A stretch of DNA of 64,000 nucleotides from Ruminococcus flavefaciens (GTDB taxonomy: Bacteria > Bacillota > Clostridia > Oscillospirales > Ruminococcaceae). The notes below the pieces were generated by a model, which saw nothing but the letters and a program-made list of their open reading frames with translations, had not been told where the DNA came from and made no database searches. Location of the stretch: contig JAMPAU010000002.1 of assembly GCA_023667045.1 (NCBI GenBank), positions 186,001 through 250,000 on the forward strand, written 5' to 3'. Position numbers and translations under genes: made by a program. Of this stretch, positions 10,131-49,200 are shown one piece after another; within the stretch, counting starts at the first letter, position 1; every line of letters starts with the position of its first letter.

Positions 10131-10204
<74 letters not shown>

Positions 10205-31600: not shown

Positions 31601-31614
31601 TTGTAACGTTACAA
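31601..31614. promoter_or_regulatory. Perfect 14-bp palindrome at the transcription start
   Basis: TTGTAACGTTACAA is exactly self-complementary, has a central CG, and begins 5 bases after the -10 box. The position suits a repressor operator. LacI-family operators often have a central CG, but no regulator gene is linked. Confidence 0.5.
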
Positions 31615-31624
31615 ATTTAATAAA

Positions 31625-31825
31625 GTAATCCGGTGCTTGTGTCCGACGTGAGCGGAGCATGAGGTAAAAGGGAAACAGGTGTGAATCCTGTGCGAACTCG
31701 TCACTGTAAGCATGGAGTATACGGCTTTTCTGCTGTGAAAGGCAGGTCACTGATAATATCGGGAAGGCTCGCCGTATATGCTGAAATGCAAGTCAGGAAA
31801 CCTGCCGGACTGCTGGTACGGAAAA
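31625..31825 (+). ncRNA. Cobalamin (B12) riboswitch aptamer
   Basis: The conserved B12 box is present as AGTCAGGAAACCTGCC (31791-31806). Upstream are GGTGCTTGTG near 31632, GGGAAACAGGTGTGAATCCTG split over 31670-31690 and the CACTGTAA segment near 31702, all in the right order for an AdoCbl riboswitch. It controls the chelatase and transport genes downstream, not the biosynthetic operon upstream. An open frame running through this RNA is ignored. Confidence 0.93.
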
Positions 31826-46517: not shown

Positions 46518-46635
46518 AGTCACCTCCGGTATAATTTTTTATATTATATTCCTGTCGGGACAGTTGGGTGACAGATACGGTTAATGAAAGCCAAAGAAGA
46601 CTATTTATATTAAAAATAAAGAAAAGAGGTGTTTT

Positions 46636-49200
46636 ATGAAAAAAATAACAATCGGGATAACCGCACACGTCGATTCGGGCAAGACTACTCTCTCTGAGGC
46701 TATGCTGTGCAAAACCGGAGCAATACGTACTTTCGGGCGTGTGGATAACGGCAGTTCTTCACTTGACACAAATCCTACAGAGCGTGACAGAGGTATAACT
46801 ATTTTTTCACATCAGGCAGACTTCACGGCAGGAAATACTCACTTTTTTCTTGCCGATACTCCCGGTCACGTGGATTTTTCGGCAGAGGCTGAAAGGACTA
46901 TGCGTATACTTGACTATGCCGTGCTTGTAATAAGCGGTACTGACGGCGTACAAAGCCATACTTCTGCACTGTGGAAACTTCTTCAGAAATATAATATTCC
47001 GGTATTTATATTTGTAAATAAAATGGATTTGACAGGTGCGGACAGACAGGCGGTTTTTGAAAATATCCATAAACGTCTTTCTGAAAACTGCGTTGATTTT
47101 TCCGGAACAGATGACGAGATACAGGAAAATTCTGCCGTGTGCAGTGATTCTCTTATGGAAAAGTATTTGAATGACGGCGTACTTTCTGACGACAATATTA
47201 TTTCCGGCATTTCTGAAAGAAAAATTTTTCCGTGCTGTTTTGGTTCTGCCTTGCGTATGAAAGGCGTTGACAGTTTTCTTGAAATCCTCGACCGTTTCAC
47301 AAGAGAACCAATAAGACAGGAAACTTTCGGGGCAAAGGTGTATAAGATTTCATACGACAGCAGGGGAAACCGTCTCGCACATATGAAGATAACAGGCGGT
47401 ATGCTGAAAGTACGTGACGAACTGGAATATATAAATTCGGACGGCGAGAGGATTTCGGCAAAGGCAAGCGGAATAAGGTTTTATTCCGGCGAAAAGTTCC
47501 GCACGGCAGATTATGCGGAATCCGGCGATGTGTGTGCTGTTACTGGTCTTGCCGGTACGTATGCAGGGCAGGGAATAGGCTGTGAAAAGGATTCGGGAAG
47601 AATGTTTCTTGAGCCTGTCATGACGTACAGCGTTGGTTTTCCGGCAGAAATGAATGTAAGTGAAGTTCTGAAGAATATGCGTATTCTTGAAGACGAAGAC
47701 CCGCAGTTGCATATTGTCTGGAATGAGCAGAACAGGGAGATTTCCGTACAGCTTATGGGCGTTATACAGCTTGAAGTACTCACACAGATTATATATCAGA
47801 GGTTCGGCTATAGTGTTACTTTCGGCGACGGTGCAGTAACCTACAGGGAGACTATAAAAAATACAGTCGAGGGTGTAGGACACTATGAGCCTTTACGGCA
47901 TTATGCAGAAGTACATCTGATTCTTGAACCGCTCGAACGTGGTAGCGGTTTGAAATTTGAAACGTCATGCAGTGAGGATATTCTTGACCGCAACTGGCAG
48001 AGGCTTGTCCTCACGCATCTTGAAGAAAAAACTCACTGCGGAGTGCTTACCGGTTCGCCTGTAACGGATATGAAGATAACTCTTGCTTCCGGTAAGGCAC
48101 ACCTAAAACACACAGAGGGCGGTGACTTCCGGCAGGCAACTTACAGGGCGGTAAGACAGGGTCTCAGAAGTGCGGAAAGTATTCTGCTTGAACCGTATTA
48201 TAATTATGAGCTTGAAGTACCGTCTGTCTGTACCGGACGTGCAATATCTGATTTACAGCGTATGTCTGCTGATTTCGGACAGCCGGAAACAATGGGTGAT
48301 ATGTCCGTTATAAGAGGCACTGCACCTGTATCTGAACTCAACGGCTATCAGTCGGAAGTTATCAGTTATACGCACGGAAAAGGTCGTCTGATATGTACGG
48401 CAGGAGACTACCGTGAATGTCACAATCCGGAAGAAGTTATAGCCAATATTAATTACGACTGCGACAGCGATATTGAAAACAGTGCCGATTCTGTATTCTG
48501 TACGCACGGAGCAGGTTATATTGTAAAATGGAATGAAGTGCCGGAGCATATGCATCTGCCGTCATGCCTTGCGGAAAAGTCAGAAGTCCATGAGGCTTAC
48601 AGGGAAAATGCAAGGCGTTTTATAAGAGAGGCGGTTTCTGATGAGGAACTTATGGAAATCTTTGAACGCACGTACGGTAAACTTAACCGTGAGCCACGTC
48701 AAGCTTTCAAGAAGACAAAAGCTGTAGCCATATCTCATAAGAGTTCAGAAAACTATAACTATGACGGAAAAGAGTATCTGCTTGTTGACGGCTACAATAT
48801 AATTTTTTCATGGGAAGAATTAAAAAAGCTGGCAGAGGATAACCTTGATTCTGCACGCTCCGAACTTATAAATATGATGTGCAATTATCAAGGTTTCACA
48901 GGGTATGAGATTATTCTTGTTTTTGACGCATACAAGGTAAAGGGAAAGCACCGTGACGTTGAGAGATACTGCAATATAAACATTGTATATACAAAGGAAT
49001 CTGAAACTGCCGATACGTATATTGAAAAAGTCTCGCATGAACTCTCAAAGAATCATCGTGTAAAAGTTGCGACTTCCGACGGTCTCGAACAGATTATTAT
49101 TCTCGGAAATGGTGCAATGAGAATCTCGGCAAGGGAATTTTATGACCAGTATAAAAACGCCGACAAGGCAATAAGAGATTTTATAGACAGCATGAAGTGA
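46636..49200 (+). CDS. TetM/EF-G-like ribosomal GTPase fused to a Rae1/YacP-type NYN nuclease
   Basis: 854 residues. Residues 1-650 follow a ribosomal-protection protein: G1 AHVDSGKTT at 10-18, DTPGHVDF, NKMD, then domains II-V. The tip of domain IV, YSPVST in TetM, is replaced by a HTEGGDFR segment, so tetracycline protection is doubtful. After a linker (about 660-710) comes a full YacP/Rae1 NYN domain from YLLVDGYN (714-721), with acidic residues at Asp718, Asp764 (VFDAY), Asp793 (ADTYIEK) and Asp815 (TSDG). Rae1 of Bacillus cleaves mRNA in the ribosomal A site. The fusion would bring a GTPase that occupies the A site together with an A-site nuclease, suggesting a role in ribosome rescue or mRNA quality control. 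Its own ribosome site (AAAGAGG) and 113-base upstream gap suggest separate expression. Confidence 0.88.
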   Translation: MKKITIGITAHVDSGKTTLSEAMLCKTGAIRTFGRVDNGSSSLDTNPTERDRGITIFSHQADFTAGNTHFFLADTPGHVDFSAEAERTMRILDYAVLVISGTDGVQSHTSALWKLLQKYNIPVFIFVNKMDLTGADRQAVFENIHKRLSENCVDFSGTDDEIQENSAVCSDSLMEKYLNDGVLSDDNIISGISERKIFPCCFGSALRMKGVDSFLEILDRFTREPIRQETFGAKVYKISYDSRGNRLAHMKITGGMLKVRDELEYINSDGERISAKASGIRFYSGEKFRTADYAESGDVCAVTGLAGTYAGQGIGCEKDSGRMFLEPVMTYSVGFPAEMNVSEVLKNMRILEDEDPQLHIVWNEQNREISVQLMGVIQLEVLTQIIYQRFGYSVTFGDGAVTYRETIKNTVEGVGHYEPLRHYAEVHLILEPLERGSGLKFETSCSEDILDRNWQRLVLTHLEEKTHCGVLTGSPVTDMKITLASGKAHLKHTEGGDFRQATYRAVRQGLRSAESILLEPYYNYELEVPSVCTGRAISDLQRMSADFGQPETMGDMSVIRGTAPVSELNGYQSEVISYTHGKGRLICTAGDYRECHNPEEVIANINYDCDSDIENSADSVFCTHGAGYIVKWNEVPEHMHLPSCLAEKSEVHEAYRENARRFIREAVSDEELMEIFERTYGKLNREPRQAFKKTKAVAISHKSSENYNYDGKEYLLVDGYNIIFSWEELKKLAEDNLDSARSELINMMCNYQGFTGYEIILVFDAYKVKGKHRDVERYCNINIVYTKESETADTYIEKVSHELSKNHRVKVATSDGLEQIIILGNGAMRISAREFYDQYKNADKAIRDFIDSMK

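Follow-up and report, generated by a model that had tools for sequence, protein, structure and literature searches.

A clostridial TetM-like GTPase fused to a Rae1-type nuclease probably does the work of Rae1 rather than conferring tetracycline resistance

What does a translational GTPase that resembles a tetracycline resistance protein do when it carries a nuclease at its C-terminus? The window, a stretch of 64,000 nucleotides of Ruminococcus flavefaciens DNA, contains one open frame with an ATG start that encodes 854 residues, in which a GTPase is followed by a linker and an NYN domain. Rae1 (YacP) is described in a review as attacking A-site mRNA in Bacillus subtilis ribosomes (PMC12320835), and the ribosomal A site is also reported to be entered by TetM-like proteins (PMC8161019). 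The combination has been seen before: Atkinson and colleagues described in 2015 a YacP-like NYN plus Tet architecture in ten clostridial species and suggested RNase-based antibiotic resistance (PMC4342817). No other paper on the fusion was found in our literature searches, judged mostly from listings. The Clostridiales proteins described there have the same two-part architecture but are filed as Tet with a possible resistance role, whereas here the GTPase forms a separate clade and the fusion excludes and displaces free rae1. What is new is the evidence that the fusion replaced Rae1, the architecture itself having been published (PMC4342817). The features of the gene are as follows.

46636..49200, + strand: whole gene, GTPase-linker-NYN fusion, 854 residues (open frame, Pfam)
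46645..47298, + strand: G domain, residues 4-221 (Pfam GTP_EFTU), with Walker/G1 HVDSGKTT, switch II DTPGHVDF including H78, and NKMD
47332..47559, + strand: domain II, residues 233-308 (Pfam EF-G_D2, 22.2 bits, below the cut-off of 27)
47611..47826, + strand: domain III, residues 326-397 (Pfam EFG_III)
47833..48174, + strand: domain IV, residues 400-513 (Pfam EFG_IV)
48091..48132, + strand: domain IV tip loop G486-R499, GKAHLKHTEGGDFR (alignment to TetM and EF-G, fused rows)
48184..48426, + strand: domain V, residues 517-597 (Pfam EFG_C)
48427..48570, + strand: C-terminal extension, residues 598-645, containing DSVFCTHGAGYIVKW and common to unfused relatives
48571..48771, + strand: linker, residues 646-712 (alignment of fused rows)
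48640..48678, + strand: conserved linker stretch DEELMEIFERTYG, residues 669-681 (alignment of fused rows)
48778..49185, + strand: NYN_YacP nuclease domain, residues 715-850 (Pfam, YacP structure alignment)
48787..48789, + strand: catalytic-type acid D718 (alignment)
48925..48927, + strand: catalytic-type acid D764 (alignment)
49012..49014, + strand: catalytic-type acid D793 (alignment)
49078..49080, + strand: catalytic-type acid D815 (alignment)

The first-pass annotation had read the frame as an EF-G/TetM-fold GTPase joined to a YacP/Rae1-type NYN domain with four acidic residues in place, and the Pfam domains bear this out. All the domains of the EF-G fold, from G to V, are found, domain II under its Pfam cut-off, and the NYN_YacP match is strong (E 4.2e-50, 170.4 bits against a cut-off of 24.6). 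Among solved chains the closest are TetM (3j9y, over residues 1-587) and EF-G; the C-terminus is closest to B. subtilis YacP (5mq8/5mq9). All 20 fusion loci fetched from other genomes have the same full-length architecture at 48-60% identity, so the gene is not an assembly accident. In the G domain H78, N128, K129 and D131 are invariant in the 39 fused rows, and the P-loop residues are present in 38, the remaining row being cut at its N-terminus; overall the key residues are invariant or found in 37-39 of the 39. The four acids D718, D764, D793 and D815 are invariant in fused (39/39) and free (34/34) NYN rows. Pairwise dN/dS is 0.04-0.07 for the GTPase half in four fused pairs; for the NYN core eight fused pairs were compared, and the seven that were not saturated give 0.01-0.16. 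Both halves thus retain their active-site residues and, judged by sequence, look active.

The nuclease half aligns to the structures of B. subtilis Rae1/YacP over residues 714-846 (E 1.5e-26 to 5.6e-28) with the same acids. In contrast to the fusion, the B. subtilis protein is free, of the 170-residue class, encoded in an rlmB-rae1-sigH operon and ends in an FEKWRR tail; the fusion has neither the tail nor the operon. A C-terminal motif L/F-E/D-x-x-R-R/K, which we defined after inspection of the tails, occurs in 32 of 35 free Rae1 rows (34 different genes, one counted twice; both exceptions are near-matches) and in none of 40 fused rows. In the alignment, the first tail arginine is present in 34/34 free rows and 2/39 fused rows. 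The second arginine of FEKWRR is R166 of B. subtilis, and rae1 R166P is reported among alleles that suppress an efp mutant as loss of the gene does (PMC6613710). We also examined the region after the core for relaxed selection; its dN/dS is erratic in fused and free pairs alike. The simplest reading of these tails, we infer, is that the tail would help free Rae1 to find the ribosome and that the GTPase would make it superfluous.

Between the two halves, residues 597-713 match no Pfam family. Unfused relatives mostly end near residue 640-660. The spacing from H640 to the NYN domain is 68-89 residues in 34 of 39 fused rows (whole range 68-202), and E671 and I675 are each conserved in 37/39 and T679 in 36/39 rows.

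Members of the family are annotated by NCBI as ‘TetM/TetW/TetO/TetS family’, and the fusion shares with TetM and TetO domains I-V, the GTPase motifs, the DFR after the tip loop and identity with TetM in the 30% range. It differs from them in the tip loop, the clade, the C-terminal extension and the added nuclease. Scores against family models fall short on both sides: the protein reaches 414.3 bits with NCBIfam tet_protect, below the cut-off of 775, and 294.9 bits with the EF-G model TIGR00484, below 659.4, although it has the fold of EF-G. No protein in the window’s genome scores above the tet_protect cut-off; the genome carries other EF-G-like genes.

The tip of domain IV had been described at first as a replacement of the TetM loop YSPVST by HTEGGDFR. 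This was a misreading, as a gapless HMMER alignment of the fusion (GKAHLKHTEGGDFR), TetM (GLYYSPVSTPADFR) and EF-G (GSYHEVDSSEMAFK) pairs YSPVST with HLKHTE. In the same alignment the DFR that follows is common to the fusion and TetM, and H489 to the fusion and EF-G. K491, H492, T493, D497 and F498 are found in 39/39 fused rows and H489 in 38/39; the H489 column holds His in 5/5 EF-G-side rows and Tyr or Phe in Tet rows. The tip proline (Pro509 of TetM, P in 4/4 Tet rows) is absent, its place being taken by K491 in every fused row. A triple S508A P509A V510A TetM is reported to be active (PMC4750697), so TetM tolerates loop changes and the changed loop alone does not disprove tetracycline protection. 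Even so, sequence comparison makes protection by the fusion unlikely. As a DNA motif the tip matches 141 of 391 genomes of the class, with zero matches in a reversed control, and 6 of 289 genomes of a phylum sample outside it; an exact match is missing in 11 of the 129 fused genomes. The tip is thus a sharp, though incomplete, marker of the family.

If the fusion does the work of Rae1, does it exclude the free gene? NYN_YacP matches are present in 249 of the 391 class genomes. Taking open frames of >700 aa as fused and of <=220 aa as free, we count a fused NYN domain in 129 genomes and a free one in 109; a single genome (G330) has both, against 36.0 expected under independence, an expectation that ignores shared ancestry. 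Twelve genomes with NYN frames of 221-700 aa fall outside this count; eight of them have the tip motif, and some of the frames are contig ends. In G136, G201 and G242 second NYN matches (E ~5e-4) lie below the cut-off and were not counted; counting them would give four genomes with both. The free count includes G248 (E 7e-4) as well as G224, whose frame is probably a fusion truncated where its contig ends. Families f25, f26, f30 and f53, and also genera g34 and g39, each contain both fused and free states. In the window’s genome, which is 99.99% complete, the fusion is the sole NYN_YacP match. The check proposed with the initial reading, whether genomes with the fusion lack a free rae1/yacP, therefore came out in its favour.

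Several unusual gene forms were seen in this survey. G133 (61% complete) has two different fusion genes (L179, L180), and in the one-contig genome G221 the fusion gene (L194) is in two pieces, with frames of 285 and 540 aa. Longer NYN_YacP proteins with extra N-terminal parts occur in Collinsella and G332, with 231 and 330 aa (L197 5486-6181 and L198 4669-5661).

The site that free rae1 usually occupies is informative in this respect. We fetched 14 free-gene loci together with their flanks; in 13 of them rae1 adjoins sigH, typically after rlmB. We inspected the fetched rlmB region of 37 fused genomes, picked from the 129 and not a random sample of them, and rae1 was beside rlmB in none of them. 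In 23 of the 37, rlmB and sigH are neighbours with no rae1 between them and a gap of 583-591 bases or less, two of the gaps containing short frames (63 and 79 aa). The other 14, including the window’s genome, have rlmB and sigH apart, so the former rae1 site is not assessable there. Searching the 23 gaps by tblastn with intact free Rae1 queries, with an intact positive control as the sole control, we found rae1 remnants at E<=0.01 in five (G025, 6e-20 and 1e-16; G112, 2e-7; G086, 1e-6; G348, 5e-5; and G199, marginal at 0.002). The fusion carrier G025 has a long decayed remnant in more than one frame, between the end of rlmB (6601) and the start of sigH (7185) on L208. Within genus g39, G059 has mrnC-rlmB-rae1-sigH and no fusion, while a rae1 gene is missing from this site in six congeners with the fusion. 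Such a pattern is what functional replacement of rae1 would look like in genome sequence.

Trees of the two halves bear on how the fusion arose. In a tree of 72 NYN rows, from which three rows were left out and whose bootstrap had not fully settled, 38 fused rows and the free gene of G243 split from the other 33 free rows with a branch support of 100/98. The G243 gene (L189 5787-6308) lies outside the rlmB-sigH locus, in a genome that also carries an unfused GTPase (L174). Being away from the rae1 locus and grouping with fused NYN domains, it may be an NYN domain freed again. Such a fission stays tentative, since by an AU test a clade of fused rows alone is also compatible with the data (p 0.387). 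For the GTPase half, a tree of 65 rows (a quick method with SH-aLRT only, many rows of odd composition, with L059, L166 and L178 left out) places TetM, O, W and B(P) in one clade (100) and the proteins with the KHT-GGDFR tip in a separate one (99). The GTPase clade is thus placed by sequence beside TetM/O/W/B(P) and not within it. A Paenibacillus row sorted beforehand with EF-G groups next to the Tet rows. Of the unfused rows, fourteen branch outside the fused clade and four within it (two Bifidobacterium, Collinsella and Ligilactobacillus salivarius), and the four nested GTPases look as if they had dropped the NYN domain.

Thirteen genomes of the class have an unfused GTPase of this clade; six have a free NYN gene and seven have no NYN match, as have two Bifidobacterium genomes with an unfused GTPase. 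The presence of the GTPase in genomes without any NYN gene argues against a role confined to delivery and implies an independent function, perhaps in rescue or recycling. We considered and rejected a partnership of the GTPase with Rae1 before the fusion, since those seven genomes indicate that Rae1 is not required.

The genomic context offers no partner. Around the fusion gene, Pfam identifies aroA, aroC, a DUF4364 protein, yunB (divergent), spoIIE and glgB, and clustering of 567 neighbouring proteins at 55 loci (37 fused, 18 unfused) gave a top family in 9 loci and a next one in 4. A conserved operon partner was rejected, as no neighbour family occurs in more than 9 of the 55. Between the divergent starts at 46523 and 46636 are 112 bases, and a single promoter-like site (46584-46611, 9 of 12) lies close to the gene. 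An attenuator or leader was rejected because this upstream region has no terminator-like site on the + strand and no Rfam match, and a defence system because PADLOC gave no match. Elsewhere in the window are a cobalamin riboswitch (31614-31823, + strand; Rfam RF00174, 94 bits) and a tRNA gene (10131-10204, - strand; Rfam RF00005).

Some copies lie on replicons of other kinds. Fused copies are present on a 518-kb Monoglobus replicon and an Agathobacter plasmid, and full-length fusions occur on two faecal phage scaffolds (L219, L220; MT835563, MT835514), which are unverified and may be bacterial. The L. salivarius megaplasmid pMP118 carries, next to an rpsN copy, an unfused GTPase (L213 3986-5920) that bears a tetracycline resistance annotation and whose tip is ASNVHTVGGDFR.

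Taken together, the conserved acids, the mutual exclusion of fused and free genes and the loss of rae1 with remnants favour a Rae1-type role over one in resistance, and the fusion probably does Rae1’s job rather than conferring tetracycline resistance. The initial interpretation of the locus stands on these points; its pairing of the tip loops does not, and the self-contained stalled-ribosome factor that it proposed is a hypothesis. We favour, with somewhat better than even confidence, the view that the protein is a Rae1 endoribonuclease that has moved to the C-terminal end of a ribosome-dependent GTPase, is targeted by that GTPase and cuts mRNA on stalled ribosomes. The GTPase half would dock at the factor site when the A site of a ribosome is open or slow, and so assume the targeting formerly given by the Rae1 tail. 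TetM-like domain IV and Rae1 need the same site, which makes their simultaneous action sterically doubtful and favours sequential use: on GTP hydrolysis domain IV would vacate the A site, after which the NYN domain, tethered by a linker of ~70 residues, would cut the A-site mRNA and leave the ribosome rescuable. For the history we suggest, tentatively and at a little under even chances, that a TetM-like GTPase acquired Rae1 in a single event, that the nuclease then lost its tail and that the fused form displaced free rae1 repeatedly across Clostridia, access to the A site now being timed by the GTPase.

Other arrangements of the same parts deserve weighing. The GTPase might be a recycling or rescue factor that splits or resets stalled ribosomes first, after which the attached Rae1 clears the mRNA; the unfused GTPase that exists without NYN in seven of 13 class genomes fits this order of events, as do the retained G-domain residues and the EF-G-type H489, and of the alternatives we consider this the least improbable, though unlikely. 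Less probable again is the proposal of Atkinson and colleagues, a ribosomal protection protein against tetracycline or another antibiotic whose RNase aids resistance. The TetM fold, the NCBI annotation, the shared DFR and the reported tolerance of TetM to loop changes (PMC4750697) speak for it; the shortfall against tet_protect, the clade separate from TetM/O/W/B(P), the missing tip proline and the lack of a widely recurring neighbour family speak against it, and it would leave the displacement of rae1 unexplained. We give slightly less credence still to a fusion of convenience, in which the activities are independent, the GTPase does not target the nuclease and the tail was lost as a side effect of tethering the C-terminus. 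The variable linker length and the apparently freed NYN gene of G243 would fit such a protein, but the tail motif is lost in 40/40 fusions, free Rae1 is replaced near-exclusively, and most linkers keep to a narrow range of lengths with a conserved stretch.

The GTPase-targeted Rae1 that we prefer bears on the route by which nucleases get to mRNA in stalled ribosomes and on what targets Rae1, and a natural fusion that replaces the free protein opens the targeting step to experiment, by way of either the tail or the GTPase. Annotation is affected too: the fusion is common in gut Clostridia, with genes in about one third of the sampled genomes of the class, and these genes often carry the label of tetracycline resistance. 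If this reading is true, a widespread stalled-ribosome mRNA-cleavage factor under GTPase control would have been hidden beneath that label.
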